Source of the DNA: Chloroflexaceae bacterium
GTDB taxonomy: Bacteria; Chloroflexota; Chloroflexia; Chloroflexales; Chloroflexaceae
Direction: 5' to 3'
NCBI GenBank assembly: GCA_025057155.1
Contig: JANWYD010000005.1
Coordinates: 124,001 to 188,000, forward strand
DNA length: 64,000 nucleotides
The notes below the pieces were generated by a model. That model ran no database searches. It was not told the DNA's origin and saw nothing but the letters and a program-made list of their open reading frames with translations. The position numbers were made by a program, and so were the translations under genes. Positions 6,741 to 37,294 of the stretch are shown piece by piece (the stretch's first letter is position 1; each line of letters starts with the position of its first letter).

Positions 6741-6784
6741 AGGAGGCCTTGAAGCGGGGATAAGCCTTGTAGGGAGGGCTGGTG

Positions 6785-6992
6785 CAATTTTGGATTGCCG
6801 ATTTTGGAGTGCGGATTGGAGCGGTGCATCTGGACGTGTCGGCGTTACGCTGATGCCCTGGCGGGTCGCCTGGTAGCGAACCAGGGAGAGCGCAGCCTTC
6901 ACCGGAAAAACCTATGGGTGTGCGGCTCCCTCCCTGACCCTCCCCCGCTGGGGGAGGGAACCGGGCGCATCCTCCCAGCAGGGAGAGGCTGA
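6785..6992. repeat. Degenerate TTTTGGA-type repeats and a CCCTCCCC-rich hairpin
   Basis: Positions 6785-6830 carry imperfect GGATTG/TTTTGGA words related to the heptamer arrays elsewhere in the window. Positions 6929-6992 hold a GC-rich hairpin segment (CCCCCGCTGGGGG) resembling the centre of the ~140-bp element at 18641. No gene is seen here. Confidence 0.4.
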
Positions 6993-15299: not shown

Positions 15300-16559
15300 T
15301 TAATCGGGCTGTAACACCAGGTTCTCGCCTGCCACCCAGCCCTTCTGGCCACCCACGGTAGTGACCCGCCACCAGGTGAAGCCATCGGCGGATTGGGGGC
15401 CTTCATCCACCATCATTTCCGTCCCGATCGGCAGCCGGGCGATGATGTTATCGGGGCTGATCGCCGGCGCCGAGCGCATCCGCAGGTTAAGCCCGCCCGC
15501 ACGGGTCACCCAGGCGCGGCAGCCGACGGCGATCTCGGTGCAGGCCGGCCCGGTCTGGGCCGCCTCGCCGATGGTCACGCGCACCGGGCGAGTCAGGATC
15601 TGATCGGTGCCTTTGACCCGCGCGCTGATTGAGGCTGTGCCCTGCTCCAGGGGCGCTTCGACGCTCCACGTGCCATCGGCGCCAACCGTCACCTCGCCAA
15701 GCACCCGATCGCCGTTGAGGATCTCGAGCACTGTGCCAGGCTTGCCCTTGCCGCTGATCACATTCGGACCGGGCTGCAGCACCGCTCCCTCGGTGGGCGC
15801 GTCCACACTCACCCCCAGGCCCCCGGTCGCGTTCACCTCGATCGGCGCGCTCGCCGCTACCGCGTTCCCGCTGGCGTCCAGCGCTTCGACAATGATGGAC
15901 TGTTTGCCCGCGCCGAGGATCGTCTCCAACTCCCAGCGCCCATCAGGGCCAACCACGGTCGTTCCCAGGTTCGTGTCGCCTGCTCGGACGCGCACTCGCG
16001 CGCCCGGCGTGCCCGTGCCGCTCAGCGTGACCGGGCCGCTCTCCACCTCGCCGGCGGGCGCGTCGAAGGTCGGCGCTGCCAGGGCCTCGCCGACAGCCAG
16101 TTTCACTGCATCGCCGGTAGCGACGACCCGGCCCCCGGCGTCCACGGCGCGGGCCACAATCTCCGCCTCGCCCGCCGCCAGGGTGGTATCCAGGCGCCAG
16201 TTGCCATCGGCGCCGACCACCGCCTTGCCGACCGGCGCGCCATTCACCAGCACTTCGACCGTCGAGCCGGGCGTGCCCGTGCCGCGCACGGTGTAGGGGC
16301 CGGCGACCACCGCCTCGCGACTGCTGAGGATGACAGGGGCCGCCGGGGTCACCAGCGTGGGTACGGGTGTGCTGACCACCACCGGCACCTGCGTGGCCGC
16401 CACTGCTGGCGTGCTCGCCTCGGGCGGCGCCGAGACGCCGGGCCGCAGCAAGGCCAGCGCCAGCAGCCCGGTGATCCCCAGCTTGGCCCAGTCGCGGCCC
16501 TGCCAGCGTCGCTCATCGGGGATCTCGGTGACGGTCGTTGTCGTCGTCGTCCGCTGCAT
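15300..16559 (-). CDS. Membrane-anchored protein with three Ig-like repeats and an SH3b domain
   Basis: A 419-residue protein. A short positively charged N-terminus and one membrane segment (about 28-42, GITGLLALALL) suggest an N-in signal anchor with the rest outside. A Thr/Pro/Val linker follows. Three Ig-like beta-sandwich repeats of about 85-90 residues each contain a GTGTPG or GKGKPG turn, a GADG-W or GPDG-W strand and an Ala-rich ending. The C-terminal 75 residues form a bacterial SH3 domain (AGGLNLRMRSAPAIS, then VGGQKGWVAGENL), a fold that often binds cell-wall peptides. Its ATG overlaps the stop codon of the upstream HhH gene (TGATG), so the two are translationally coupled. It may bind the envelope or a glycan. 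Confidence 0.8.
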   Translation of the reverse strand: MQRTTTTTTVTEIPDERRWQGRDWAKLGITGLLALALLRPGVSAPPEASTPAVAATQVPVVVSTPVPTLVTPAAPVILSSREAVVAGPYTVRGTGTPGSTVEVLVNGAPVGKAVVGADGNWRLDTTLAAGEAEIVARAVDAGGRVVATGDAVKLAVGEALAAPTFDAPAGEVESGPVTLSGTGTPGARVRVRAGDTNLGTTVVGPDGRWELETILGAGKQSIIVEALDASGNAVAASAPIEVNATGGLGVSVDAPTEGAVLQPGPNVISGKGKPGTVLEILNGDRVLGEVTVGADGTWSVEAPLEQGTASISARVKGTDQILTRPVRVTIGEAAQTGPACTEIAVGCRAWVTRAGGLNLRMRSAPAISPDNIIARLPIGTEMMVDEGPQSADGFTWWRVTTVGGQKGWVAGENLVLQPD

Positions 16560-19090: not shown

Positions 19091-20650
19091 TCAACACGTC
19101 TGGTTGGTCATCAGGCGGCAGCGGTCAAAGAGCAGCGTCCACAGCTTCTCGACCACCTGCCGGGGCACTTCCACCAACTGGTAGTAGAGCATGTCATTCC
19201 AGACCAGTTCGCGACGGATCACCTCTGGCCGGATGAATGTGAACTGGGCGATCAGGCCGATGTTCCAGGCCACCAGGGCCACGGCCCCGATGAGAATGGG
19301 CCATCTGCCCGCCCGCGGCTGCAACCAGGCCAGGAACGTCGCGAGGCCAACCACGAAGATCGGCGTGCACTCGATCAACCGGCGAAAGCCAAAGGCGCCC
19401 CGCAGGTGCCAGGTCGTGCCAAAGGCGCCGTTGATATAGGTCTGCGCCAGGAACCCGGCCAGCAGCAACCCGGCCAGCAGCGCATCCCGGCGCGCCAGCC
19501 AGAGCAGACCCAGCAACCCCAGGGCCAGCACCGGCGCCCATACAAAGGCGCCCCGCCCCGGATCAATGAGCGTATTGAGGAAGTTCGGGCTGCTCCAGAT
19601 GAACTTGCTCGCCACGGTCGGCGAGGGGCCGGGCCGCCCGTTGAGGATCTGGTAGGCCAGCAATTGCGGCGTCAGCGTCACCCCCAGTGTTACGAGAAAT
19701 GCCGCATGGCGGCCGGCAAGCCCCAGGGCCGCGCGCCAGCGTTCCTCTGCCACAAACGCTGCCTGGTGATCCCTCCTCTGCGGAGCAGTTCGGAGAGGCG
19801 GACCCCCCGAAGAACCCGCCGCCAGGACCCCGTAGGTCCAGAGGGCTTCCAGGGCCGGGATGATCAACAACAGCCCCAGTTGTTCGCGGGTCATCACCAT
19901 CAACCCACCGATCAGCCCCAGGGCCATCCACGTACCCAGGCCCCGCTCCAGGGGTCGCCGCCAGTGACGCATCCAGACCGTCAGAAACAGCGCGAAGAGG
20001 AAGAAGCCGGGCGCGTGCGACCACGGCATCAGAATGATGCTGTAGAATACCAGCGAAGAGGCCAGAAAGACGGTGAGCGTCGCCACGGTGGCGGCAAAGT
20101 CGTCGCTGTAGCGGCGCGCCAGCCGGTAGGTCAGCAACAGGCCCAGCAGGCTATACAGCGCCGACATCATACACGTCGCGACGATGTACGCTCGCCCGTA
20201 GCCATCGCGTGGCAGGTTCGCCCCCAGAGCATTGGCGAGGCCCACGGCCATATCGGCCAGCACGAACCCCGGCGCCCAGAGGATCGCCGCGCCAACCGGC
20301 GCGACATTGCGCAGCAGCCCCGTCCGGGGATTGGGGTTCATCGCGTCTTCGCGCAGCAGCGCCCTGGTGATGGCCTGATCGCCGAAACGTTCGGCCTGCG
20401 CGGCGAAGTGCTCGTACTCGTTACGGAAATCGAGATCGCGATCAAAGTAGACCGAGCGCAGATAGGCGTAGTACTGCACCTCGTCGCTCAGGGCCACGCG
20501 CGGCACGCTGAAGGGCAGCAGCAGCAGAAATACCAGGGTAATCACCCACGGACCGGCGTCACCGGCAGCCAGCCAGGACCGGAAACGCACCAGCGCCCGT
20601 AGCCGCCCCGGAGTGGCGGGAGACGTCGTGTGGTCAACAGGTGTATGCAT
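19091..20650 (-). CDS. GT39-like polytopic glycosyltransferase
   Basis: A 519-residue membrane protein with about ten to eleven membrane segments. The first extracytoplasmic loop has the acidic DEVQYYAYLRSVYFDRDLDF, the typical position of the catalytic acidic residue in GT-C enzymes of the PMT/ArnT type. These enzymes transfer sugars from polyprenyl phosphates. The ATG at 20650 is preferred to the longer frame because the region upstream contains a terminator hairpin. It is the last gene of a minus-strand run that includes duplicated lectin/propeller cassettes and other glycosyltransferases. The acceptor and sugar are unknown. Confidence 0.82.
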   Translation of the reverse strand: MHTPVDHTTSPATPGRLRALVRFRSWLAAGDAGPWVITLVFLLLLPFSVPRVALSDEVQYYAYLRSVYFDRDLDFRNEYEHFAAQAERFGDQAITRALLREDAMNPNPRTGLLRNVAPVGAAILWAPGFVLADMAVGLANALGANLPRDGYGRAYIVATCMMSALYSLLGLLLTYRLARRYSDDFAATVATLTVFLASSLVFYSIILMPWSHAPGFFLFALFLTVWMRHWRRPLERGLGTWMALGLIGGLMVMTREQLGLLLIIPALEALWTYGVLAAGSSGGPPLRTAPQRRDHQAAFVAEERWRAALGLAGRHAAFLVTLGVTLTPQLLAYQILNGRPGPSPTVASKFIWSSPNFLNTLIDPGRGAFVWAPVLALGLLGLLWLARRDALLAGLLLAGFLAQTYINGAFGTTWHLRGAFGFRRLIECTPIFVVGLATFLAWLQPRAGRWPILIGAVALVAWNIGLIAQFTFIRPEVIRRELVWNDMLYYQLVEVPRQVVEKLWTLLFDRCRLMTNQTC

Positions 20651-20680
20651 GTTCGCGCGCCACACGCTTCTACCAGGCAG

Positions 20681-20710
20681 GGGTATGGGGAAACCATGTT
20701 TCCCATACCC
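20681..20710 (-). terminator. Hairpin between propeller A and the GT39-like gene
   Basis: GGGTATGGGGAAAC and GTTTCCCATACCC pair almost perfectly around a 3-nt loop. It lies between two co-oriented genes and could end transcription of propeller A or act as a processing site. Confidence 0.55.
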
Positions 20711-20798
20711 CGCCAGATGAAAACCTAGATGATTTGGCAAGACGGGACGGGAAAATCCGGTCTCCCGCACCCCGGTCAGTCCGCAATCCGCAAGCGCG

Positions 20799-23069
20799 CT
20801 AGCGTCGCATGACCGGCAGGTGTGTCCGCGTAAAGGTTACGCTGGTCAGATTAATGGTCGCTGTCAGATGGCCGTCGGTGGGATTGCCGGCGCCGTCAAG
20901 GAAGCGCGCATAGACATAATAGGCGCCAGGGGTGAGTTGATCGGCCCGCAGCCCGCTCGCCAGGCTCCAGTTGGTGATGGTAAAGGTCGTGCCGTCGCCG
21001 GGCGCCTGCACAGGCGTCCAGACCAGACTCGGATCGGTGGCGGGATTATTGACCGGTTGGCGGCTATTAGCCAGCCAGACCCCCCAGAAGCCCCGGCCTG
21101 GATAGGCATTATCGGTAACGGTGAAATTGCTGAAACTCAGGGTGGTCAGAATGGTAGCCTGAGCATTCGAGGTGATGCGCAGCGAGTCAGGCGTTGAACT
21201 CGCCAGCACCGGTTTTACGGGATCGTAGATCAGCGTTTGCTGATAATCCCGCTGATTGCCCGCCCGGTCGCTCACGCGCACAAGCAGATTATTCTCGCCG
21301 AGGGCGATCCGTCCGGGGTAGCCGAGCGCATTGGCGAAGAAGTCATTCTGCATCGGGATGGCGCGCGCGAAACTGGTAATGCTGCGACCGGCCGCCACAT
21401 CCTTGAGATTGCTGCAATCATTGACCCCCCGGACGTCCAGGTAGAAGCCCGGCTCGCGGGTATAGCCGGGATGGCCATCACTTGCCCCGGCGGCGCCGCT
21501 ATCAGCCGGCAGCAGTGGATCGTGCAGGTCATCGCCGGCAGGAGTGAACCGTGGCGCGCGCCGGGCGATGTGCGGATTGCTGATAATAACCGCCGCCTGG
21601 ATCCCCGGGTCAATGATAATATCGTCGCTCTGCGGAGCGCCGGTATCACCATCGGCCTCGCGCACCTGGGTGTACAACTTCACCGGCGTGCAATCCTGGC
21701 CGAACAGACTGGAAGGCAAGGGAATGGTCATCGGGTTGCTGAAGGGCTGCCATCCATTCGAGTCATTGGCCGTATCGGTTGGTGGAGAGTTCCAGCGCCA
21801 GCGGATCTGCGCGGGCTGGCCGCGAATGTTGAGGAAACTCACCCTGACGGTGTTCCTGCCTGGTATGTACTGCGCATTGTCTTCAATGTTGGGGTCCGCC
21901 CCCACATCGGCGCCCGGCTCGGCAGCGAAGAGCAGATACCGCAGCACCGAGGGTCCGCCCCCAAACAACTCGCCGGCCACGTGGGCGTAGGAGGCGTCAC
22001 TGACATTCGCCGACATGCGCGAGTTGAAAATCACCCCTGCGTCGTTCGGAGCGGCGATGGGGTTGGTGAAGGAGGTGCTGCCCCGCGGGCGCACGGCGTA
22101 GTACACGCGCTGGCCGATGTCCACCACGGCGTTCCACTGCAAATGCAGGTTGCCGCTGGAGTCGGCAAAAATATTGGCCGTGCCGAACGTCTTAGCGGGG
22201 CCGGTGATCCGGGTGACGGCCCAGGTATTGCCGTCGCTTGAACTCGACACAAAGATGCCGGAGCCTGAACCGCCCTCGGCGATGCCCCGGTACGCCACGT
22301 AGATGCGACCATCGAGATCGTAGGTTACCGTCGGATCCGCGTAGCCCTCATCAAGGCCCGAAACACGAGTGAGCGCAAATGTGCTCCCGTTCCAGGTGCC
22401 TGCGCGGATGACCAGGCGATCGCTCTCGCCCGCGGTCACCGCAATGGCCATCGCCCCGTTTGGCCCGGCTGCCAGAGCGGGAAAATTGACCGCCGCGTCG
22501 TTGCCGATGCTCACCCGGGGCGACCAGTTTTGCCCATCGTTGTTGGAACGCACGACGAAAGCGGGCCTGTCTGGCTCTCGCCAGGCAACATAGGCGTAAT
22601 TGTCGCTGGAGACCTCAACCACGGCATTGACCGGGAAGGCGCCGCTGGGGCCAGCATACACGGTGCGCTGCGGCCCCCAGTCGCCGTTGAGCGGTTTGCG
22701 CCGGTAGAAGATTGAGCGGCGCTCCTGGTTGATCCAGACATAGTGGACGGCGCCATCGGGGCCGATAGCTATACTGGTGGTCGAAAAGTCGGCCTGACCG
22801 GGGGCATCGCCAAGCCGCGTGGGGTTGGGGAAGTCAAGTGTGCGGTCGCGCTTCTGCCAGACGAAGGCATCGGCGCGATTGGCGTTCGCCGAGAGGAACA
22901 CCTCGCTCCGCGCGGCGACCACGTCGGGGAACTTGATCTCGCGAACGTTCGGGACAGTCGTCTGGCCGAGCAAGCGCGGACCGCTGCCCCCCTGGGCCAG
23001 GCCAGGCGCCGCGGGCAGGAGCAGGGCCACCAGGGTCAGGGCGCTAAGGATGAGAGTCAGGCGGCGCAT
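20799..23069 (-). CDS. Secreted beta-propeller protein, cassette A
   Basis: A 756-residue exported protein. A Sec signal peptide is clear (MRRLTLILSALTLVALLLPAAPGLAQ, cut near residue 25). About 350 residues of repeated propeller-like blades follow, with phrases such as AIGPDGAVHYVWINQ, SSDNYAYVAWRE and DLDGRIYVAYRGIAEGG, similar to sialidase/BNR-type folds but without regular Asp boxes. Two or more Ig-like beta domains make up the rest, ending in a YYVYARFLDGAGNPTDG module. It is a close paralogue of the protein at 24086-26350, and each is preceded by a lectin-like gene, here 21 bases upstream. It is probably a surface or matrix protein that binds or shapes glycan; no catalytic residues can be identified. 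Confidence 0.82.
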   Translation of the reverse strand: MRRLTLILSALTLVALLLPAAPGLAQGGSGPRLLGQTTVPNVREIKFPDVVAARSEVFLSANANRADAFVWQKRDRTLDFPNPTRLGDAPGQADFSTTSIAIGPDGAVHYVWINQERRSIFYRRKPLNGDWGPQRTVYAGPSGAFPVNAVVEVSSDNYAYVAWREPDRPAFVVRSNNDGQNWSPRVSIGNDAAVNFPALAAGPNGAMAIAVTAGESDRLVIRAGTWNGSTFALTRVSGLDEGYADPTVTYDLDGRIYVAYRGIAEGGSGSGIFVSSSSDGNTWAVTRITGPAKTFGTANIFADSSGNLHLQWNAVVDIGQRVYYAVRPRGSTSFTNPIAAPNDAGVIFNSRMSANVSDASYAHVAGELFGGGPSVLRYLLFAAEPGADVGADPNIEDNAQYIPGRNTVRVSFLNIRGQPAQIRWRWNSPPTDTANDSNGWQPFSNPMTIPLPSSLFGQDCTPVKLYTQVREADGDTGAPQSDDIIIDPGIQAAVIISNPHIARRAPRFTPAGDDLHDPLLPADSGAAGASDGHPGYTREPGFYLDVRGVNDCSNLKDVAAGRSITSFARAIPMQNDFFANALGYPGRIALGENNLLVRVSDRAGNQRDYQQTLIYDPVKPVLASSTPDSLRITSNAQATILTTLSFSNFTVTDNAYPGRGFWGVWLANSRQPVNNPATDPSLVWTPVQAPGDGTTFTITNWSLASGLRADQLTPGAYYVYARFLDGAGNPTDGHLTATINLTSVTFTRTHLPVMRR

Positions 23070-23090
23070 AGGGTTGTCCTCTTCTACCGG

Positions 23091-23876
23091 CTAGCGGCTC
23101 GTGACGCTGAAGTCGTCAAAGAGAATCCCTCCCATCGCCCGCGTATACACCCCTGCCCGCCCTGCCGGGAGGGGCTCCGGATCGTATCCCTCGACCACAA
23201 CCGTTCCGTCCAACGTAACGGTGATTGTGTCGCCGGTGACGTTCATTGCCAGCACATGCCACATTCGCTCATCGAACCCCGGTTCCCTGATCTCCACCAG
23301 CGTGGTGGCGACGCCCTGGTACACCCGTTCAAGCACCTGTTTGGGAGTAGCCGGGTACGCATTCTTCAAGATCCGGTAGCGGTAGTAGCTCGCAGTTAGC
23401 GGATCATTGCCGCTATAGCGGGCCACCAGCCCGGCGGTGCCATTGTACAGGTCGTAGAAACTGACCTGCACGGTGTAATCGGTCCACGCCGACGTGCCGG
23501 CGACCGCCGCCGTCTCCAGGGTTGAGGGGTTTCCTGCCGAGGCGGTAAAGCGTTGTTCGAGCCGCCCATTGGCGATCGTCCAGATAGGGCGCTGTTCAGC
23601 CAGCCGGATCGGCTCCAGCGGCACGAACGTCCAGGCGTTGATGGTTGCGGGATCGTCGAAAGTGTCTGCGGCAAGGATTGCAGCCGTCTGGGGCATCGTC
23701 GCCGCCGTCGGATTCGGGCCAATCGTCGGCGTGGGGGGAAACGGCGGATACTCGAGCAAAGGCTCTTGTTCCTGGGCGACACCACGCGGCGCCTGCCAGA
23801 GAGCCACGGCCACGAGCGCGGCGACCAGCAGCAATACCGCCCCGCCGGCAATAGCGGGTCTGATGTAACCTTTCAT
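23091..23876 (-). CDS. Membrane-anchored lectin-like protein, cassette A
   Basis: A 261-residue protein with a short cationic N-terminus, one membrane segment (about 7-28) and a Pro-rich spacer (PPFPPTPTIGPNPT). It ends in a concanavalin-A-like jelly-roll domain of about 190 residues (AWTDYTVQVSFYDLYNG, GLVARYSG, SYYRYRILKN, RAGVYTRAMGGILFDDFSV), the fold of LamG and DUF1080-type glycan-binding domains. The ATG at 23876 is chosen over one two codons upstream because AGAGGG lies eight bases before it. It is paralogous to 26603-27385, including the membrane segment and spacer. It is coupled closely to the propeller gene downstream and is probably outward-facing and glycan-binding. Confidence 0.82.
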   Translation of the reverse strand: MKGYIRPAIAGGAVLLLVAALVAVALWQAPRGVAQEQEPLLEYPPFPPTPTIGPNPTAATMPQTAAILAADTFDDPATINAWTFVPLEPIRLAEQRPIWTIANGRLEQRFTASAGNPSTLETAAVAGTSAWTDYTVQVSFYDLYNGTAGLVARYSGNDPLTASYYRYRILKNAYPATPKQVLERVYQGVATTLVEIREPGFDERMWHVLAMNVTGDTITVTLDGTVVVEGYDPEPLPAGRAGVYTRAMGGILFDDFSVTSR

Positions 23877-24020
23877 AGGCATCCCTCTCGATGGACGCGG
23901 CCCTCTTGCCGTGCGGGTCGCGCAAGGTGAACCTATTGTACTACTGAACGCCAGTGCTTGCGAATAGGAAGAAAGTCTTGACGCACATATGCATCCGCGC
24001 TTGCGCGTAGTATGCGAGAG

Positions 24021-24049
24021 GGTCTGGGAGGACGAGACACTCCCAGACC
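24021..24049 (-). terminator. Stem-loop after propeller B
   Basis: GGTCTGGGAG (24021-24030) pairs with CTCCCAGACC (24040-24049) around a 9-nt loop, just after the propeller B stop. No T tract follows, so the role as terminator is tentative. Confidence 0.5.
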
Positions 24050-24085
24050 CCGTGCGTTTGTGTGGCGGCCTTAACGAGCGGTCGG

Positions 24086-26350
24086 TTACCGATACATCCT
24101 CGGCAGCCAGAGTTGGGGCGGCGTTAGATTGCTGGAGGGCACGCGGATCTCGATGTATCCATCGCTGGCGTTGCCCGCCGCGTCAAGGAAGCGCACATAC
24201 AGATAGTAATCCTCGCCCGCCACCAGTTGCGCGCGGCTGAGACCGCTGGCCAGGCTCCAGTTCCTGATGTCGAAGGTGCCGTTTTGCACGCCGCTCGCCG
24301 GAACGATGAACCATCGCAGGTTCTGATCCCGCAGCGGGTCGGCTACGCGATCGGGCGAGTTGGCCACCCATACCCCCCAGATCTCATCAGGGAAGAAGTC
24401 GTCATCTACGGGGATGTTACTGAAGCGCAGGGTCTGCAGCAGGTCGAATTGGGGATGGGGAACGGCGCTGGCCTGTGAATTGTTGTTCGCGTCTTGCTGG
24501 TTCAGCCGCGGCCTCACATTGTCGTAGTTGACGGTCAGGTTAAAGGTCTGCCTGTTCCCCGCCCCATCACGCACTTCGACCACCATCGGCCAGGGCCGCG
24601 ATTGCTGGCCGCTGAAGCCGGGGATCGGCACAAATCCGGACCAGCCGTTCGGCCCGAGCTGGTAGGTGGTGCTGAAACTGGTTCCGGCGCCGCTGATCCG
24701 GGCCTCGGTCAGACCGCTACAGTCGGTGTCGGGAATGATGTTCAGGTAGGTAAACGGATAACGCGTGTGATCGGGCGCGCCGCCTGGCGCCTGGCCATCG
24801 TCGCTCACCGGTGCGTTCGTGACGCTTGCGGCCCGGGCGAGCGGATTTTCCAGGTATACCCAGGCTTCCACTACGCCATCTATGAGAATGCTATCCGAAC
24901 GCGCCTCAGCCTCGATCTCGCCGGTCTGCGTATTCCGAAGCTGGGTGAACAGGGTTGACGGCAGACAGGACGTATCGCTGTACAGCGCTTCCGGCACGGA
25001 TACCCGCAGCGGGTTGCTGAAGGGTTGCCAGCCGTTGGAGTCGCTCGCAGCGTCAGTTGGCGGGGAGTTCCAGCGCCAGCGGATCTGGTTGGGTGTCCCC
25101 TGAAGGCTGGGGAACGAGACCAGCACGGCCCGTTCGGCGCTTCGACCGGTTCGAGGCGCATCGCCCTCGATCACCGGCTGGCCGCCGAAGGCCGCCGCTC
25201 TGAACAACGAATAGCGCATGCGCAGCCCGCTGCCCGTGAACTCCTCACTGACCATGTGATTGTACGCGACACCCCCGACAATGCTGCCGGAAGCCCGCGG
25301 GTTAAAGAGCGTGCCACTGGCGGCCGAAGTGAGCGGTCCGCGGAAGTTGGCCGTTGGAGACTTGAAGGCATAGAAGGGCTGGATTCTGCCCGACGGCTGT
25401 CCGATCCACGAAACGTGCAGGTTGTTTTGCTCGTCGAGGCTGATATTGGCTGTACCAATCACCCGGCCAGACGTGAGCCGGCTGCGCGGCCAACTGCCGT
25501 CCGGCTGGCGCTCGGAGTAGAACACGCCCGAATTCGGCCCGCCCTCGGCGATACCGCGCCATGCGACATATACCCGGCCCTGGCGGTCGAAGCTGATGCT
25601 CGAGTCGGCCCATCCATCGCCGCCGGAGGTCACCTGGCTGATTTCAAAGCGCGACGTTCCCGCGTTCCACAATCCGGCGAAGATGTGCAGGCGATCCCCG
25701 GCGCCGGCGGTGAAGGTCAGACCGACCTGGCCGTTCGGGCCGGCGGCCAGGCCCAGCGGCGACGCATAGGCCTCGAAACTGGTGACATTGGTCAGCCCGC
25801 TCCAGCTTACGCCGCCATCGGTAGAGGTGCGGAACCGCACCGGCGTGCCGGGATCGCGCCAGGCGACGAAGATCTGATTGTTGCTCGATACCGCCACCTC
25901 GACCGAGACCGGAAAGGGCGACCCCCGGTTGACGATGCGGGTTGGCCCCCATTCTCCTTGCGGAGAACGCTGGCGCACGAAGATCGTTCGTGACGGCTGG
26001 TTGATCCAGGCGGCCCACACCGAACCATCAGGCCCCAGGGTAATCGAGGTGGGGGAGTAATCGGGTTGGCCCTCGGCAGGGCCCAGGTCTACAGGGTTAG
26101 GAAAGCTGGTTGCAGTTGCCCCCTTACTCCAGGCGAAGGCCGTGCGGCGAAAGGCGTTTCCAGAGGCGTGTACCTGATTGTTGCCTGCCACTACATGTGG
26201 GAACTTCACATCATTGGAGCTAGGCATGATGAATTCAGTGATTAATTGCAGGCCGCTTTCTTGCGCCCTGGCAGAGGGCGCTGGCTGCGCCGCGAACACG
26301 GCGGCCAGCATCGCAACGGTACACAGCGCGACAAGCGAGGTTCGCAACAT
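24086..26350 (-). CDS. Secreted beta-propeller protein, cassette B
   Basis: A 754-residue paralogue of 20799-23069 with the same layout: signal peptide (ending near PSARAQE), propeller-like blades (GPDGSVWAAWINQ, SSNNQIFVAWRD, RQGRVYVAWRGIAEGGP), and Ig-like modules ending in YYLYVRFLDAAGNASDG. Both copies share the phrase RWRWNSPPTD followed by SNGWQPFSNP near the middle. The divergence is spread along the whole length, so the duplication is not recent. It lies 252 bases downstream of its lectin-like partner. The likely site of action is the cell surface or extracellular matrix. Confidence 0.82.
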   Translation of the reverse strand: MLRTSLVALCTVAMLAAVFAAQPAPSARAQESGLQLITEFIMPSSNDVKFPHVVAGNNQVHASGNAFRRTAFAWSKGATATSFPNPVDLGPAEGQPDYSPTSITLGPDGSVWAAWINQPSRTIFVRQRSPQGEWGPTRIVNRGSPFPVSVEVAVSSNNQIFVAWRDPGTPVRFRTSTDGGVSWSGLTNVTSFEAYASPLGLAAGPNGQVGLTFTAGAGDRLHIFAGLWNAGTSRFEISQVTSGGDGWADSSISFDRQGRVYVAWRGIAEGGPNSGVFYSERQPDGSWPRSRLTSGRVIGTANISLDEQNNLHVSWIGQPSGRIQPFYAFKSPTANFRGPLTSAASGTLFNPRASGSIVGGVAYNHMVSEEFTGSGLRMRYSLFRAAAFGGQPVIEGDAPRTGRSAERAVLVSFPSLQGTPNQIRWRWNSPPTDAASDSNGWQPFSNPLRVSVPEALYSDTSCLPSTLFTQLRNTQTGEIEAEARSDSILIDGVVEAWVYLENPLARAASVTNAPVSDDGQAPGGAPDHTRYPFTYLNIIPDTDCSGLTEARISGAGTSFSTTYQLGPNGWSGFVPIPGFSGQQSRPWPMVVEVRDGAGNRQTFNLTVNYDNVRPRLNQQDANNNSQASAVPHPQFDLLQTLRFSNIPVDDDFFPDEIWGVWVANSPDRVADPLRDQNLRWFIVPASGVQNGTFDIRNWSLASGLSRAQLVAGEDYYLYVRFLDAAGNASDGYIEIRVPSSNLTPPQLWLPRMYR

Positions 26351-26602
26351 GGCTCGTTCTACCTCCAGGCGGGGATGGGCGAAGCGTTCGTGGCAGACGC
26401 CCCCGCATATCGTTCACCTAATGCTGACCTGGGTCCGGTGCTCCACAGCTCTCCAACCCTCCGCGACGTTCGTATGGAGGTGTGGAGCGGTAGAGAGAAC
26501 GCTACTGCGCATAGGTCCATCCTGAACCGCAGCCCGGCAAACTGGCCCGCCGATCGCTGGCTGCGTCGCCGGCCCTCGTGCGGGCCTGCCCCCTGACCCT
26601 GG

Positions 26603-27385
26603 CTACGGCTGGACGACGGCAAAGTCGTCGAAGATGATCCCGCCAATGGCGCGGGTGTAGATGCCGGCGCGGCCGGCCTTCAGCGGCGCGGGGTCCTGCG
26701 CCTGGGCCACGACCTGACCATCAAGGGTGACGGTGATGGCGCCGCCGTTCACGCTCAGGGCGAGGGTGTGCCATTCGCGCTCGGTGAAGCCCGGCTCGTC
26801 AATGGCCGCCAGGGTGGTCGCCACGCCGCCTTCAACCTTCTCCAGCACCCGCTTCGGCGTATCCTCGAAGGTGTTCTTCAGTATGCGGAAGCGATAGTAA
26901 CTGGCGGTTGCCGGGTCAGCGCCGCTATAGCGGGCCACCAGCCCGGCGGTGCCGTTGTAGAAGTCGTAGAAGCTCACCCTGACAGTGTAGTCGGTCCACG
27001 CAGCCTCGCCGGTAAGAGCGAGTGTCTCCTGGATCGAGGGGTTGCCGGCGGCCGCAGTAGCGTCCTGCGCCAGGCGCCCGTCGCGAATGGTCCAGACGGA
27101 GCGGCTCTCAGGCAGCACGAACTCGAGATCGACGATCTCCCAGGCGCGCAGATCGGCCGCATCGTCGAAGGCGGTCACCGCAAGTGGCGCCCGGCCTTGC
27201 GGAAGTGGAGGCGTTGTCGGGTTGGGACCGACGGTGGGGGTAGGCGGATAGACAGGGTATTCCAGGATCGGCTGTTGATCCTGGGCTACGCCGCGGGGGG
27301 CCTGCCAGAGGGTCACGGCAATGGCGCCGATGACCAGCAGCCCGACCGCCAGGCTTACGATCATAGGTGTGCGATATCGCTTCAT
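26603..27385 (-). CDS. Membrane-anchored lectin-like protein, cassette B
   Basis: A 260-residue paralogue of 23091-23876. The membrane segment runs directly into the shared WQAPRGVAQ word, then a Pro-rich spacer (YPPTPTVGPNPTTPP) and a jelly-roll domain with AWTDYTVRVSFYDFYNG, GLVARYSG, SYYRFRILKN and GIYTRAIGGIIFDDFAV. The core blocks are much more similar to cassette A than the rest of the protein is, which suggests selection on the binding fold. It lies upstream of the propeller B gene and downstream of a group-1 glycosyltransferase. The ligand is unknown. Confidence 0.82.
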   Translation of the reverse strand: MKRYRTPMIVSLAVGLLVIGAIAVTLWQAPRGVAQDQQPILEYPVYPPTPTVGPNPTTPPLPQGRAPLAVTAFDDAADLRAWEIVDLEFVLPESRSVWTIRDGRLAQDATAAAGNPSIQETLALTGEAAWTDYTVRVSFYDFYNGTAGLVARYSGADPATASYYRFRILKNTFEDTPKRVLEKVEGGVATTLAAIDEPGFTEREWHTLALSVNGGAITVTLDGQVVAQAQDPAPLKAGRAGIYTRAIGGIIFDDFAVVQP

Positions 27386-27478: not shown

Positions 27479-28762
27479 TCAGTTCACTATCGTTGTCAAT
27501 GTTTCAAGCTGGCGCGACGGTAATGCGACATGTGGACCGAGAAACGGCTGGTACAGACGTAGCAGCTCGGCCGCGATATGCGCCGAGCTGAAGGCCGGGG
27601 CCATGGCCGCCGCGCGGCGGCTGCAGGCGGCCCAGGTCTCGCGATCGGTGAGCAATTCCTCGAGAGCTTCGGCAATAGACGCGCCGGAGCGGGGGTCCAC
27701 GACCTGACCGGCGGCATGGGCCGCTATATAGTCGCTGACTCCGGTGGTGCGAGTGACCACGGTAGGGGTGCCCACCGCCGCGGCCTCGACCGCCACGCGA
27801 CTGAACGACTCGGCTACCGAGGGCACCACGACGACATCGGCGGCGGCGAGGTAGGTGATGGCCTTGGCATGGGGAATGCCACCGGTAAAGTGCACGTCGG
27901 CGCCGACCCCCGCGGCGGCGGCCCGGGCCCGCAGGAAGGCCCCGTAGTCGCCAAAGCGGGGTGTGGAACGGTTAGGGCCAACAATAAGCGTCTGCGGCGC
28001 GATCCCGCGTCGCCGCAGATAGGGCAGCGCATCTATCAGGTAGGCGATGCCTTTGAAGGGGTGGAGGCGGTTCAGACTGACAACGATCGGCCGGGCGGGG
28101 TCGAGATGGTGTCGTTCCGCGACTTCCAGGCGACTGCGCTGGCGGAAGGCCATGAGGTCGCCAGAGGGCGGGAAACTGTCGGCGGTGATGTTGTAGGGGA
28201 TCGCGACAACCTTGCGCGGATCGGCGCCGAGGCGGACGGCGAGTTCGCGGATCTGGGGCGAGTCGGCGCGCAGCACAGCGGCGCGCCGGAAGACCCAGGG
28301 CAGGATGGCGCGCACGGCGGGGAAGCGCCCGTAGCCGTAGTCATATTCCGGCTCGGCCATAATATCGGCGCCGGGCAGGGTAATCGCCAGGGGCGGCGAG
28401 TGGCGGCGGGGGGCCAGCGCGGCGATCAGGCCAAGGGGAAAGGCGGTTTCGAGGTGGGCCAGAGCGTAGCGCCGCTCACGAATGAAACGCTGGTAGTGCA
28501 ATGCCGCGCCAGCGAGATAGGGATAGGGCAGCGCAGCGGCTACAGCGCGATTGGCGAGCTTCAGCGGCGCGCTGGCGCTTACCGGGAGGCGATGCACCGT
28601 CACCCCCTCTTCGGTGCTCGTGACCCGGCGCGTCAGACGGGCATCCAGGCTCAACACTTCGGCCTCGATGCCATGCCGCCGCCATTCGGCGATCACTTCG
28701 CTGTGAATGCGATTGCCCATCGCAGCGCTGTCGTAGCGCGGGATGCAGTAGAGAACGTTCAT
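27479..28762 (-). CDS. Group-1 (GT4-type) glycosyltransferase
   Basis: A 427-residue GT-B-fold enzyme that transfers a sugar from a nucleotide donor, acting at the cytoplasmic membrane face. The N-terminal domain begins MNVLYCIPRYD and the C-terminal domain carries the donor-binding region (VVSLNRLHPFKGIAYLIDALPYL, then the E-x7-E motif in ESFSRVAVEAAAVGTP). GAGGAACC directly precedes the ATG. It is the only clear GT-B enzyme in a run of GT-C membrane proteins, so it may build a lipid-linked or surface glycan intermediate for them. Confidence 0.92.
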   Translation of the reverse strand: MNVLYCIPRYDSAAMGNRIHSEVIAEWRRHGIEAEVLSLDARLTRRVTSTEEGVTVHRLPVSASAPLKLANRAVAAALPYPYLAGAALHYQRFIRERRYALAHLETAFPLGLIAALAPRRHSPPLAITLPGADIMAEPEYDYGYGRFPAVRAILPWVFRRAAVLRADSPQIRELAVRLGADPRKVVAIPYNITADSFPPSGDLMAFRQRSRLEVAERHHLDPARPIVVSLNRLHPFKGIAYLIDALPYLRRRGIAPQTLIVGPNRSTPRFGDYGAFLRARAAAAGVGADVHFTGGIPHAKAITYLAAADVVVVPSVAESFSRVAVEAAAVGTPTVVTRTTGVSDYIAAHAAGQVVDPRSGASIAEALEELLTDRETWAACSRRAAAMAPAFSSAHIAAELLRLYQPFLGPHVALPSRQLETLTTIVN

Positions 28763-29233: not shown

Positions 29234-31540
29234 TCATTCTTCCCGGCGTTCCCACAGTTCCAGTGCTCGTCCCGAGCGGCTCACCACGCGGATGAGGCGG
29301 TAGGATGGCTCCAGGGCCGCGCGGCCGCCAAAATAGTCGTCCCAGATGCGCGGTATGTAGGTTGGGCGCCGATGATGGAGGATGTACCCCGGATCGCGCT
29401 TTTCGTGACCGGGCACGCCCTCCCCCATGCCCGCGATTTGCAGCCGGCCAATGTGCCGGTCGGTCAGCCCGTACATGTCAATCGCTGTGCGCTGCCCGTA
29501 GAAGGCTACCGCGCCTGCGCCGGCCACGGCGATGCTGGCCTCGGGCGGGCTGTGGTCTTGCAGCCACCAGCCGATCTCGCGCCAGATCCACACGCTCTCG
29601 TCCAGGCCACGGATGGTGGTGTCGAAGGGCGCCGTGCGAGCGAGAGCGGCCAGGCTCCCGGCTGCCAGCCCGAGGGCCAGCAGGGTCCGCACCAGGCGCG
29701 CGGGCGCGGGCAGGGTCTGGATGCTGGTCGCCAGCCCGTCGGCGATGAGGAGCGCGAACCAGGGGACCAGGGGCACGAAGAAGCGTTCGCCGCGAAAGTG
29801 GTCGCCGCCCACAACGATGATGTAGGCGCTGTAGGTCAGGGTCACCAGCAAGACATAGCTGCGCCAGGAGGCCAGGGCCGCGCGCCAGGATCGCAGCCAC
29901 GGCGCGGCGATCACCAGCAGCAGCGGGCCGCCAATGGTCAGGGCGAAGGCCCCGGCATAGGCCAGGCCGCGCTCGATCTGCTTCAGGCCGCCGCCGGTTT
30001 TGGCGTAGAAGGTGTTCGGCAACAGGTCGCCGTAGTAGCCCAGCCGCCACAGGAAGTATGGCCCGAACAGAGCCAGGAAAGGCACGCCCAGGACCAGCAA
30101 CGGCGGCAGCGTCGCGCGCCAGCGTTCCGCCGGGCCCCTCTGCCGCCCCGGCGCTGCCGTGAGCCTGGCATGCAGGGCCGTGAGGGCGAACAACAGCAGG
30201 CCCTCGGGACGCGTGAGCGCGGCGAGTCCGAAGGCCAGCCCGGCGGCTGCCAGCCCGCGTGACCCCGATCGCTCGCGGGTGAGGTATGCGCCTCCGCCCA
30301 CGAGCGCAAGCAGCGTGAACAACCCCGTCTCCAGCCCGGAGCCGCGGGCGGTGTAGAGCAGCAGGCTCTGGCTCGTGCCGGTGAGCAGGGCCGCCACCAG
30401 CGCCCATGGCGGGCCGATGAGCGGCTCGGCCACCCGATAGGTTCCCACGACGATCAACAGGCCGAGCAGGACGCCGCTGGCGTGGCTCCAGAGCGCCAGG
30501 TCGCCGCCCAGGCGCAGCACTCCCGCCGCCATCACCGTCCACAGAAAATTGGTGTAGCCCTCGACTCGCTCGCCGACATTGTAGACCAGCCCGTGGCCCA
30601 GAGCCAGGTTCTGGGCGTAGCGGAAGGAGATGAAGGCATCGTCGGAGAGCCAGGAGGGCCAGATCAGGCTGGCCAGGGCGACAGGCGGCATCAGGGCGGC
30701 CAGACCGAGGCGCGCGGGGAAAGGTCGCGCGCTCAGGGCGGCCAGGAAGACACCGCTGAGCATCAGGGCCGCCAGCCAGGTCGGGGGCAGGGCCGCGGGC
30801 CGGTTGAGGATGGCCAGGGCCGCCAATCCGAGACCGGCCACGCCGGTGAGCGCCAGCGCGTCGCTCCGCGGCAGCCGGGCAGCGCGCAGCAATCCCCACA
30901 GCGCCGCCAGCCCCAGGCCGGCGAGCGCCGCTCCCGCCAGGTCGGGCCGGGTAAGCGGGCGCAGCCGCACGTCGGTCAGCATCACGCCCAGGGGGCGCGG
31001 GTCGCCAGCAGCGACGAAGGTGGGCGTCTGGAGAGCGAGCCATAGCTCGGCGCCCTCGCCGCCGGGGCCGATCAGCAGCCGGTAGAGGCGAAAGCGCGAC
31101 TCCGGGGTGACGCGGGCCACGGCTTGCCCGCCGACGAGCAACGTCAGCGGCTGCGGCCCCGCGGGGTTGTCGGCGCGCAGGCGCACCTCGGCGCGGTAGG
31201 CGGGCGCGGCGAAGAAGGCGCCGCGCACCTGGACCAGGGCGTTGCCGCTCGTCCAGCGGTAGAGGGAACCATCAAGGTGGCGTTCGGGGCCGTAGATGCC
31301 GTCAAGGAAGACCGGCCCGGGCGCGATCTCGCCGCCGGTCACCGGGGCGAGGGCCGGAGCCTGCGAGCGGCCAAGCGACACCAGAGCGGCGACAACCAGC
31401 AGCAGCGCCAGGAGGCCCGGCACAGTCCAGTTGACGGCGAGCCACTGCCTGGCTTCCCCCTGTCGCGCGGACGCGGGCGCGACGGTGACATCCAGGCGTC
31501 GTCGTTCGGCTTCCAGACCCTGGCGGGACTCGGCGTTCAC
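29234..31540 (-). CDS. GT-C glycosyltransferase resembling arabinofuranosyltransferases
   Basis: A 768-residue polytopic protein. A single N-terminal membrane segment is followed by a soluble beta domain of about 150 residues and then a multi-span core. The first catalytic-type loop reads [13 protein letters not shown] followed by [12 protein letters not shown], and a later loop has [14 protein letters not shown]. These words are characteristic of the AftB/AftC-like GT-C group, which uses decaprenyl-phosphate sugars. The start is a GTG at 31540 overlapping the methyltransferase stop (GTGA), so the two are cotranslated. The stop codon abuts a terminator-like repeat. The true sugar donor is unknown. 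Confidence 0.82.
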
Positions 31541-32394
31541 GGTTTATGCAGAGTGAACATCACGTAGAGCGGATCGCTGCGGTCGAAACGCTCTTCGAGG
31601 GGATGGACAATCAGGGCCAGCAACAGATCCTTGAGCACGAAGCGGCGCCAGTAGCGCGTGAGCTGCGTCTCGTGGTAGCGCCCGTTGAGGAGGGAGCGCC
31701 CGAAGCCCTCCAGCCGGCTCATGCGCAGGCCGGCGGGCCGGGCATAGGTGTGCTCAAGGTCCTCCAGGGTGTAGAAGCGGAAGAACGAACCGGGTTTACC
31801 CTCCTGCACGAAGGCGTTCCGCTCCACCGGCACAAACGGGCGAATGCCGCGGAAAAAGCCAGTGCGCTCACTGCTGGTAAAGGGCAGGGTCACGGCGGCA
31901 ATGCCGCCAGGGGCCAGAACGCGCCCGATTTCGCGCCCGACCGCCGCGTCGTCGGGGATGTGCTCGAGCGAGGAGATGGCGGCGATGCGCGCGAGGCTGC
32001 CATCGCGCACGGGCATAGCGGTGGCGCTGGCCACCAGGGGCAAGAACTGGCCGTCGCCGGGGCGGGCGGTGGCGCGCCGCTTGCGGAGTTGCCAGCGCAC
32101 CCGTTCCTGGTCCAGCTCCAGCACGATCACGTTAACGCCCTCTCTGGCGAGCATGTGCGGGTATGACGAGGTGCCCGAGCCGATGTCGAGCACCAGGTCG
32201 CCGCGGCGCAGGTCGAGAGCGCGGGTGGCCCAGGGATACTCGATGATGCGCCAGAGGCTGAAATCGTTGACCGTTTCAAGCAGAATGCGCCAGCCGTTCA
32301 GGGCCACCTCGTAGGCAACCGCGCGCCACTTGCTGAGGCGCACCGGCCGGCCCTCGCGCTCCTGTCGAGTAGATTGGAAGGTGGTCGTTGCCAT
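31537..32394 (-). CDS. Class I SAM-dependent methyltransferase
   Basis: A 285-residue enzyme. Motif I ([16 protein letters not shown], about 68-83), the acidic residue ending the next strand ([10 protein letters not shown]) and the LEHIPDD segment place it in the Methyltransf_11/25 type. The N-terminal basic region and a C-terminal amphipathic stretch suggest membrane association. It precedes and overlaps the GT-C gene by four bases, so it may methylate a glycan or its lipid carrier. Its target is otherwise unknown. Confidence 0.88.
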
Positions 32395-32666: not shown

Positions 32667-34958
32667 TTATTCAATAATCATCCCCATGAACGCCAGGCTC
32701 AGGCGCCGGGAGGGCTGTCCCGGCGGCGCGTCGGCGGGGGCGCTTAAGTATAGCACAGTCTCGCCAGGGGGCAGGATGACGTGCAGGGTGCGGCGCATGC
32801 GGGCGCGGCTGACGGTCAGGGTGAAGGGCGCGGCGTCGCCCGCGCGGACGGTGAGCGCGCGGGGTCGCTCGAAGGCTTCGAGGTCGAGGGTCAGGCGCGC
32901 AGGGCGCGGGGCGCCGGTCGGGTTGAGCAGGAAGACCTGTGCCGCCTCCCCCATCCAGCGCCACCGGGCGCCCGCGGCGTCCTGCTCCAGATCGCCCCAG
33001 CCGGGGCCGAGGTAGGCCAGAGGGCGGGGTCGCTCCGGTACGGGCACGGGGTAGAAAGTCACCTGTTCGTCGCGGTAGCTCTCGGTCAGACCCATCTCGG
33101 CGACCAGGTCGCGCATAGGCGGCAGCGACGAACCCATCGAGTCGTGGTGGAACACGACATAACGTATGGCGTAGGCCGCCAGGGTCTCGCGGGCCAGGTC
33201 GGGCCAGCCGGGGCTGAGGATGTCATCGCGTTCGACCTGCCCGAAGCGCAGCTCCTTGATCCCCGGAGCGTAACGGCCCAGGGGATAGGGCGGCTCGCGT
33301 CCGATGAAGCCCCCGATGATCGGCCAGTGGTGGCGGGTCTGGTACCAGAGGTGCTCGCTGTTGGAGAAGTTCAGGTGAAGCGGGACGGGCAGCAGGGCGC
33401 CGTCAGGTGCGGGCATGCTCAGGTAGGGTCGGGGCATGGGGCGCTGGAAGAGCGGCGCGGCGCCGGCCGTGCCGTCAATGGCGATAATGCTCGCCAGCAG
33501 CGCAGCGGCCAGCAGCGCTGCGCCCCGGCCCGCGCGGGCGAGCAGGGGGCGGGCGCCCGCGGCGGCGAAAAGGGCCGTGGTGAGGAGGCTGATGAGCACA
33601 AAATGGTTGGGCCGGTGGCTGGAGCGCACTCCGGGCAGGTCGCGGATCAGGGCGTAGGGGCCAGGGAGACCGGTGTTCCGCCCGAACACGAAGATCTCTG
33701 CGCCGAGGGCCATGGCCGCCGCAAAGACGCCCAGCGCCAGCCAGCGCCAGTGGGCGCGCCCGCTCAGGATGACGCCGTAGAGTGCCAGGGCGATCCCCAC
33801 CAGGCCCAGCGAAACGTTCCAGAGGATCTCGCCAGGGTGCAGCCGTTCGTAGAAGGCGGTGACGGCCCCTCCCCAGAGGGGATGGTTGGGATTGGGCAGC
33901 CAGAAGCTAATCAGGTCGGCGTAAGCCTGCTGCTCGCCGCGAGCGTCGCCGAGGAGCGCGTCGCCGGTGTACAGCAGGCTGAGGAGGCGCGGGGTCATGA
34001 CCGCGAACCAGAGGACAATCGGCGCCAGGCCCCAGAGCAGGGTGGTGGCTTGCAGGCCCACGGGCGCGCCGGGCAGCCGCAGGGTTGCCGGCGGCCCGGC
34101 GGGGCCGGCAGGGATGCGAAGCGCCCACAGTCCTGCCATCAGGCCGGTGGCAATCAGCGCGAACAGGCCGTAGTACCAGGTGCCCAGGCCGACCACGAGC
34201 AGCGCCGCGCCGCTAAGCAGGGCCAGCGGCCAGCGCGGGCGTTCGAGCAGCGCAGCGGTTGCCAGCGCCCACAGCGGCAGCCACTGGACGGAGGCGACCT
34301 CCAGTTGCGCGTCGAGCACCTTTTGCATATGGAAGGGCGCGAAGGCGTAGACCGCGCCGCCGATGAGCGCCGCCAGGATCGCGGCCCGCCGCTCGCCGGG
34401 TGCGAGGAAACCTTCTGCTCGTGCTGCCACCCACCGGTCCGCCGGGAGCCCGAAGGCTCCGGCTCGCGTTGCGAAGGCTACCTGCGTAGCCTGCCGGAGC
34501 CGGTGCGGGCCGGCTTCGCAACCAGACGTTACGCTGCACTGCCGCTCGCCCCCGTCGCGCAACACGTAGGCGATGAAGAGAAAGGTGAAGTAACCGCCGA
34601 GAATGAAACTGAGCAGGATCAGCAGATTGTAGGCCGGCAGCGGGCCGGCGGCGAGGGTGACCGGAAGGGCCAGCACCCCCTGAGGCAGGCTAAGGGTCTG
34701 CCAGAAGAGATCCAGCCCCTGGGGATGGAAGAGCAAGGGGGTCACGAACGGGTTCTGGCCGGTGGTGAGGGCCTGCGCCGTCCACCAGACGTTCCAGATT
34801 CCCAGGTAGCCATCCACCTGGCCGGGCTGGTTGGCGATGATGCGCTCGCCGAGGTGCAGCGGCAGGGGAAAGGTGACCACCAGGGCCAGCAGGGTGTAGA
34901 CCAGCAGGGCCAGGGCGTGGGAGGGCCAGTGACGGCGGGTTGTGGCGGCGAGGCGCAC
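32667..34958 (-). CDS. Polytopic GT-C-like membrane protein with an in-frame repeat insertion
   Basis: A 763-residue relative of the proteins at 4548 and 52231. The N-terminus shows a membrane segment ending in VTFPLPLHLG, then DGYLGIWNVWWTAQAL and NPFVTPLLFHPQGLDLFWQTLS, matching the paralogues in order. About ten to twelve membrane segments are followed by a soluble beta-rich C-terminus. Around residues 135-180 there is an extra Arg/Ala-rich segment absent from the paralogues, encoded by palindromic DNA. The start is a GTG at 34958 directly after the stop of the upstream gene, so the two are cotranslated. It is probably a GT-C glycosyltransferase of the surface-glycan locus. Confidence 0.82.
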   Translation of the reverse strand: MRLAATTRRHWPSHALALLVYTLLALVVTFPLPLHLGERIIANQPGQVDGYLGIWNVWWTAQALTTGQNPFVTPLLFHPQGLDLFWQTLSLPQGVLALPVTLAAGPLPAYNLLILLSFILGGYFTFLFIAYVLRDGGERQCSVTSGCEAGPHRLRQATQVAFATRAGAFGLPADRWVAARAEGFLAPGERRAAILAALIGGAVYAFAPFHMQKVLDAQLEVASVQWLPLWALATAALLERPRWPLALLSGAALLVVGLGTWYYGLFALIATGLMAGLWALRIPAGPAGPPATLRLPGAPVGLQATTLLWGLAPIVLWFAVMTPRLLSLLYTGDALLGDARGEQQAYADLISFWLPNPNHPLWGGAVTAFYERLHPGEILWNVSLGLVGIALALYGVILSGRAHWRWLALGVFAAAMALGAEIFVFGRNTGLPGPYALIRDLPGVRSSHRPNHFVLISLLTTALFAAAGARPLLARAGRGAALLAAALLASIIAIDGTAGAAPLFQRPMPRPYLSMPAPDGALLPVPLHLNFSNSEHLWYQTRHHWPIIGGFIGREPPYPLGRYAPGIKELRFGQVERDDILSPGWPDLARETLAAYAIRYVVFHHDSMGSSLPPMRDLVAEMGLTESYRDEQVTFYPVPVPERPRPLAYLGPGWGDLEQDAAGARWRWMGEAAQVFLLNPTGAPRPARLTLDLEAFERPRALTVRAGDAAPFTLTVSRARMRRTLHVILPPGETVLYLSAPADAPPGQPSRRLSLAFMGMIIE
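34445..34522. repeat. Palindromic repeat inserted within a coding sequence
   Basis: Two perfect short stems, GGAGCC-cgaa-GGCTCC and GGCTAC-ctgc-GTAGCC, are joined around GTTGCGAAG, with the complementary CTTCGCAAC at 34514-34522. This copies the architecture of the intergenic repeat at 32461. Confidence 0.6.
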
Positions 34959-37055: not shown

Positions 37056-37294
37056 AGGATGTGCGCTCTGAAACGAACCACGAACCTGGGAGCAGCCCCT
37101 ACGGTTGCTTCCAGGTGCTCCACGATGACCCGCCAATTGTACTCGAAACCACCGGTTGCGGCGCAACCCGCCGGGTTGCGGGCGGAGGTCTAAGAGGGCC
37201 AGGTCCCTGACGGGCGCAGATATGCGAACGGGGAAACCGGATTTCTCCATTGCCCCTGCCGGCGGGGCCGTGGAGACGGCCCACCGGGCCGTCT

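Follow-up and report, generated by a model that had tools for sequence, protein, structure and literature searches.

In this study, we followed up a tandem gene arrangement in a 64,000 nt stretch of a Chloroflexaceae genome (GenBank assembly GCA_025057155.1, contig JANWYD010000005.1, positions 124,001 to 188,000), hereafter the window. A gene for a lectin-like jelly-roll protein is followed by a gene for a beta-propeller protein, and this cassette is present twice. In Chloroflexales the pairing is close to obligate and is embedded in a conserved glycosyltransferase cluster; the lectin copies show concerted evolution, unlike the propellers, which diverge. Our best reading is that of a module which serves the glycan of its own operon or is decorated by it; that the cassette acts as a two-part cell-surface glycan-recognition module for this glycan is proposed tentatively, at somewhat less than an even chance. 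New are the pair, the operon, the head-limited copying and the C-terminal tail, with parts that belong to known fold families, and no paper describing pair, cluster or tail was found in open-licence PubMed Central (PMC) text.

The four genes lie on the minus strand and are transcribed in the order lectin 1, propeller 1, lectin 2, propeller 2. An earlier note, made from the letters of the window, had described this tandem duplication, and all four open frames were recovered. With 66% identity between the lectins (232 amino acids (aa), E 2e-111) and 39% between the propellers (783 alignment columns, E 3e-151), the likeness is far beyond chance and the duplication is confirmed. Promoter-like sites were located 86 and 53 bp 5' of the two lectins, their number not exceeding that in shuffled sequence (4 versus 2.2, standard deviation 1.5). 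The genome (5.13 Mb, 189 contigs) additionally holds a third, diverged propeller without adjoining lectin (L106:8883-11177).

The neighbourhood set comprised 61 Chloroflexales loci including the window; 50 genomes contributed 67 lectin genes, each 500 bp or longer. The earlier note had proposed co-occurrence in other genomes as a check and had named rare co-occurrence as a refutation, and the outcome does not refute it: a propeller is the next gene downstream of 65 of the 67 lectin genes, on the same strand and within 700 bp, with a median gap of 27 bp; since loci were picked for a match to either family, this count gauges linkage and not presence. The remaining two lectin genes (G035, G013) both sit at contig ends, and in G035 a propeller is found 289 bp upstream. 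The observation is robust and holds more widely than could be seen from the one locus. Complete double cassettes are found at nine loci (G000, which is the window's genome, G001, G002, G004, G008, G031, G034, G036 and G061), and three further genomes (G007, G022, G029) carry two cassettes on separate contigs. Propeller matches on contigs without a lectin match were also noted in G002 and G016.

Of 61 genomes (the window's own and 60 relatives), 50 carry the lectin and 44 the propeller; within the order Chloroflexales, 59 of 82 genomes have the lectin. In a phylum-wide draw of 301 genomes, the lectin profile matched 40, of which 28 lie within the order and 12 outside; the outside matches reside in frames of at least 627 aa, except for one 301-aa frame (G092:C489:6710-7267). 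Ten long lectin-domain proteins that were scanned, two of them (L203, L209) from within the order, include GH59, GH5, GH42/GH10-like and ADP-ribosylglycohydrolase proteins. The propeller profile matched 23 of the 301 genomes, 22 of them in the order; this search scored no more than three candidates in each genome and overlooked copies of the Herpetosiphon type, which a profile built from 48 propellers detected adjoining a lectin. Taking phylum-wide draws and neighbourhoods together, the pair is seen only within Chloroflexales, and no lectin-propeller fusion was found when the propeller profile was run against 18 loci with distant lectin-domain proteins at E<=0.01.

Both lectins of the window start with a hydrophobic segment, followed by the word WQAPRGVAQ and a Pro/Thr spacer, and the earlier note had rightly listed the latter two as common features. 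Its statement that the membrane anchor is the same holds for the presence of a hydrophobic segment, the anchors being similar in kind only: over 43 aligned lectins, conservation is lowest in residues 1-27 (mean majority fraction 0.42), compared with 0.65 for the spacer (33-62) and 0.61 for the domain (66-260). In the AlphaFold2 model from nine sequences (mean predicted local distance difference test score (pLDDT) 72.5), a helix spans residues 7-28, the spacer is below a pLDDT of 50 and a jelly-roll covers residues 63-260 approximately. Aligned by VIA-align, the nearest fold is the galactocerebrosidase lectin domain (Z 19.9, root mean square deviation (rmsd) 3.4, 176 residues), and CBM66 follows with Z 18.5 (rmsd 2.3, 156 residues); a Bacillus galectin-like protein and the thrombospondin C-terminal domain also belong to the closest group at Z 18-20. 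Residues from about 65 to 260 align over the whole domain, as in the concanavalin A-like jelly-roll of CBM66 and GH59 lectin domains, with 17-21% identity in the structural alignments to these. At the level of profiles, lectin 1 matches the GH59 C-terminal lectin domain (PF21708) above cut-off (E 8.6e-8) as well as the 3-keto-disaccharide hydrolase family PF06439 (E 1.2e-9, 39.0 bits, cut-off 26.8), which lectin 2 just misses at 25.1 bits, and all nine family members examined match both families at E<=0.01. Unlike the GH59 and CBM66 domains, which are parts of glycosidases, the lectin here is a separate protein predicted to be anchored in the membrane by a single pass and to carry its jelly-roll on a Pro/Thr stalk. 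Membrane anchoring is supported because lipobox-like Cys sequences replace the helix in Herpetosiphon-group orthologues and in that of G045. The label lectin is justified by the modelled fold, not as an activity.

For the propeller, modelled from 11 sequences (mean pLDDT 81.9, predicted template modelling score 0.54), seven blades were counted from DSSP strands between residues 34 and 385, with strand 34-41 closing the ring and an immunoglobulin (Ig)-like region following. The predicted form is a secreted protein with a seven-bladed head and an Ig-like region. The earlier note had given both propellers the same signal, blades and Ig modules; signal-like segments are present in both and seven blades are seen in the model, and the Ig-like assignment draws on model strands and on Big_13 matches below threshold in 2 of 11 members. 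The head matches CylK best (Z 32.6, rmsd 3.1, 336 aligned), followed by PLL-type lectins of Photorhabdus and Burkholderia (Z 27-28, up to 28.3 with rmsd 2.9 and 307 aligned). The latter share the seven-bladed head at 9-11% identity and differ in lacking the Ig-like stalk and C-terminal tail which the propeller here adds. The integrin alpha head, a seven-bladed propeller before an Ig-like thigh, shows a similar fold order and Z of about 27 over the head, at about 10% identity and without evidence for common descent or integrin function. No PDB sequence matched the propeller family profile at E<=0.01, an absence which does not exclude kinship. Structure prediction hence supports a lectin-type jelly-roll in one partner and a propeller-lectin-type fold in the other.

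These matches also bear on an enzymatic function, in which the pair would act on a surface glycan, the jelly-roll as a 3-keto-disaccharide hydrolase-type enzyme or the propeller as a lyase or glycosidase. We consider this very unlikely. The passing of the PF06439 cut-off by lectin 1, the nine of nine family matches and the presence of CylK and ulvan/rhamnose-glucuronate lyases among the propeller folds argue for it; however, lectin 2 falls just under the cut-off, the 3-keto enzymes rank below the galactocerebrosidase lectin and CBM66 domains in fold comparison, and the propellers of the window remain under all BNR cut-offs. A sialidase (BNR) assignment of the propellers was dropped in view of these scores, the best of which belong to propeller 2 (BNR_4 18.9 bits versus cut-off 27.3; BNR_2 15.8 versus 31.4), and of the seven blades.

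As the earlier note had observed, the cassettes lie between glycosyltransferase genes, with a GT4-family enzyme (c3) and an AftB-like GT-C membrane enzyme (c4) on one side and a PMT_2/ArnT-like GT-C protein (c2) on the other. The conserved order starts with a methyltransferase-like gene (c5), followed by c4, c3, one or two lectin-propeller pairs and c2. Of 43 testable loci, 31 carry c2 downstream within 5.5 kb, 26 of these within 500 bp, and a same-strand member of c2 to c5 lies upstream in 31 of 47 loci; at a distance of up to 1.5 kb, 22 loci have c3 and 7 have c4. The family profile of c4 matches the AftB arabinofuranosyltransferase structure 9dlf_C, but stays at 37.2 bits far under the NCBIfam AftB equivalog cut-off of 1050. 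This context raises an alternative in which the paired proteins would be structural glycoproteins, acceptors of the operon's glycosyltransferases through O-glycosylation of the TP-rich stalk and the Ig-like parts, and would form an envelope layer, with the sugar-binding folds as mere scaffolds. We regard it as unlikely: a PMT_2-like GT-C adjoins the pair, an AftB-like GT-C lies upstream and the stalk motif is conserved as much as the folded domain, but PMT_2 is found in only 3 of 10 c2 family members.

Trees built from all copies place the split between the propeller paralogues of the window's genus before several genera, while the lectins group by genus or genome. In genus g9, which we take to be Chloroflexus and which includes G031 (presumably C. 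aurantiacus J-10-fl) and G061 (presumably C. aggregans), the two copies of mature lectin DNA within one genome are 87% (G031), 98% (G034), 97% (G036) and 100% (G061) identical, compared with 71-78% between these genomes, and a tree with the first-cassette lectins as a single clade was rejected (approximately unbiased test, p-AU 2e-118). The 27 codons ahead of the mature lectin display the opposite pattern, with 42-53% identity within a genome versus 51-88% between downstream copies at the same position. G063 is an exception with lectin copies only 75% identical within the genome. The propellers of G034 share 49% DNA identity. Concerted evolution is shown for the lectins, and the propellers diverge.

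In G061, a single-contig genome, the homogenised stretch extends across two genes: 1,945 bp are without mismatch between the tandem cassettes (L176:7071-9015; 1,950 bp at 99.95% by BLAST). The tract starts at codon 38 of the lectin 1 frame, at the first residues past the membrane anchor, and ends at the position of residue 384 of P0002, in the last strand of blade 7. The propeller heads are 99% identical at the protein level and the Ig regions 37%; anchor and Ig region remain cassette-specific. Such an exact tract across two genes was seen in this genome alone. In 10 of 11 copy pairs, G001 being the exception, the two heads resemble each other more closely than the two Ig regions, but the difference is clear only for Chloroflexus and G008. 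An apparent reciprocal head swap between G063 and G036 (L177, L178) was not used, because unequal crossover cannot be distinguished from an assembly chimera; the G063 contigs are short and frameshifted and the exchange spans whole propellers. In our reading, the lectin is where conversion begins, and a tract is retained only if it stops at a domain border. Such border-limited tracts could reflect either a joint lectin-propeller head or plain folding constraint, and the co-copied lectin and head of G061 are the strongest hint of a joint unit. For primate Siglec-11 and Siglec-16, one report describes an extracellular lectin domain homogenised by gene conversion, with the other parts of the paralogues differing (PMC5701461). 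The lectin domain is likewise homogenised between paralogues here; unlike the Siglecs, which are animal receptors and unrelated proteins, the copied unit can span two genes.

The propellers end in a tail of the pattern [FY]-hydrophobic-P-hydrophobic-hydrophobic-x-R-stop, which also terminates many large secreted-looking Chloroflexales proteins (L127-L156, L214-L233). Its strict form is found in 32 of 47 full-length propellers and in none of 49 lectins. In DNA of G000, G031, G042 (which we take to be Roseiflexus sp. RS-1) and G053 (presumably Herpetosiphon aurantiacus), the pattern matched 8, 17, 21 and 3 times, compared with 0, 2, 2 and 0 in codon-permuted and 1, 2, 1 and 6 in reversed controls, and 28 of the 30 matches fetched out of 49 end an open frame. 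Among 20 tail proteins (14 from G031, 5 from G000, 1 from G042), none has a later membrane segment and 18 begin with a signal-like N-terminus, by a lax test that 30 of 57 control frames pass too. When 151 genomes of the phylum were scored, all nine drawn members of the window's family showed a clear excess over control, as did G044 and a few others such as G157, G112 and G214, but not the Herpetosiphon-type genus g20. We rejected the idea that every secreted protein carries the tail: in 400 kb of G031, counting frames not cut by region edges, 0 of 39 secreted-like and 1 of 155 cytosolic-like frames carry it, so that it marks a subset. The tail is a candidate surface-sorting or retention signal.

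We propose a model in which a single transmembrane helix, or a lipid in some relatives, would tether the lectin to the membrane, with its jelly-roll displayed on the conserved Pro/Thr stalk. The propeller would be secreted and probably retained at the surface via its tail, with the Ig-like region as a stalk and the head pointing outward, and both heads may act jointly on a surface glycan. The most likely target would be the glycan that the enzymes encoded alongside (GT4, AftB-like GT-C, second GT-C and methyltransferase) build or modify, so that the pair may organise or retain an envelope glycan or glycoprotein layer of the producing cell itself. Combining a common lectin with two diverged types of propeller would provide two specificities or two positions. 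This self-glycan model is supported by the pairing, the cluster, the carbohydrate-binding-type folds, the lipobox-like anchors and the co-copying in G061, as well as by the distant lectin-domain homologues in GH59, GH5, GH42/GH10-like and ADP-ribosylglycohydrolase proteins. The glycan-binding surface complex suggested in the earlier note thus gains support in pairing, folds and glycosyltransferase context, and binding and complex formation themselves stay conditional. Several observations weigh against the model. c2 is absent downstream within 5.5 kb in 12 of 43 loci and an upstream cluster gene in 16 of 47. Solo propellers occur in G037, G040 and G049 (family f2) and as the third copy of the window's genome (G000:C20), and in G031, G034 and G036 the lectin alone is homogenised, so that lectin and head are not always co-copied. 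Moreover, a modelled fold alone shows no function, and the best propeller match, CylK, is an enzyme.

The paired heads might instead bind foreign glycans, such as those of mat cyanobacteria, sheaths or substrates, and serve adhesion or gliding, with the glycosyltransferases decorating the adhesin. This appears rather improbable to us. The pair is seen only in an order which includes named gliders, with G031, G042, G053 and G061 presumably belonging to Chloroflexus, Roseiflexus and Herpetosiphon, and the copying of tandem heads from one cassette to the other is reminiscent of variable surface receptors. Gliding is described for C. aggregans and Herpetosiphon (PMC13104615), and the gliding machinery of C. 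aggregans is termed unidentified (PMC11434263). However, the conserved cluster is without a motor-like gene, and the same double cassette is carried by G031, presumably C. aurantiacus, a species reported to glide at about 1/100 of the rate (PMC11434263). In that report, the self-aggregation of C. aggregans is described as non-adhesive. A related and likewise doubtful possibility is a two-gene surface receptor of filamentous gliders, a glycan adhesin in which the extracellular lectin domain and the propeller would make up one functional, exchangeable head. This head would be copied as a unit between tandem cassettes with anchors and Ig stalks fixed, one lectin being kept common while the propellers diversify, and the C-terminal sorting tail would hold the receptor at the surface.

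Elsewhere in the window, long frames are located at 32667-34958, 34959-37250, 4548-6902 and 52231-54420, and several of them encode numerous membrane segments. The frames at 32667, 4548 and 52231 form one family (c6) often found near the cassette, and those at 52231 and 32667 gave no NCBIfam match. The protein encoded at 15300-16559 contains an SH3_3 domain besides three Ig-like stretches of the Big_6 type; five genomes have relatives of it close to the cluster.

Table. Features of the cassette region, in positions of the window; domain limits and functional names are predictions.
Feature	Positions	Strand	Extent	Basis or remark
Lectin-like gene 1	26603-27385	minus	260 aa	open frame; PF06439 and GH59 C-terminal lectin domain above cut-off
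Membrane anchor of lectin 1, N-terminal	27302-27367	minus	residues 7-28	model helix 7-28; orthologue N-termini
Conserved Pro/Thr spacer of lectin 1	27200-27289	minus	residues 33-62	YPxxPPTPTxGPNPT type
Jelly-roll (concanavalin A-like) domain of lectin 1	26606-27199	minus	residues 63-260	AlphaFold2 model; VIA-align matches
Propeller gene 1	24086-26350	minus	754 aa	open frame; model mean pLDDT 81.9
Seven-bladed head of propeller 1	25190-26257	minus	residues 32-387	model strands; Z 32.6 CylK, 28.3 PLL4 lectin
Ig-like beta region of propeller 1	24116-25189	minus	residues 388-745	model strands; sub-threshold Big_13
C-terminal tail of propeller 1	24089-24112	minus		LWLPRMYR, looser form
Lectin-like gene 2	23091-23882	minus	263 aa	open frame; 66% identity to lectin 1
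Propeller gene 2	20799-23069	minus	756 aa	open frame; 39% identity to propeller 1
C-terminal tail of propeller 2	20802-20825	minus		THLPVMRR
GT4-family glycosyltransferase (c3)	27479-28762	minus		Pfam Glycos_transf_1 E 1.3e-31; upstream of lectin 1, position conserved in relatives
AftB-like GT-C membrane glycosyltransferase (c4)	29234-31540	minus		family profile versus AftB structure 9dlf_C, E 2e-16
S-adenosylmethionine-dependent methyltransferase-like (c5)	31537-32394	minus		weak NCBIfam methyltransferase matches; conserved position
GT-C membrane protein, PMT_2/ArnT-like (c2)	19091-20770	minus		true start probably later, relatives about 500 aa

The arrangement presents a compact, near-obligate gene pair and its conserved glycan operon, from a lineage with poorly understood surface biology, gliding and adhesion. 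The C-terminal tail, which other secreted proteins share, may label a route of secretion or sorting in the order. Copying that is confined to domains but crosses from one gene into the next would indicate, on evolutionary grounds, that two proteins act as one unit.

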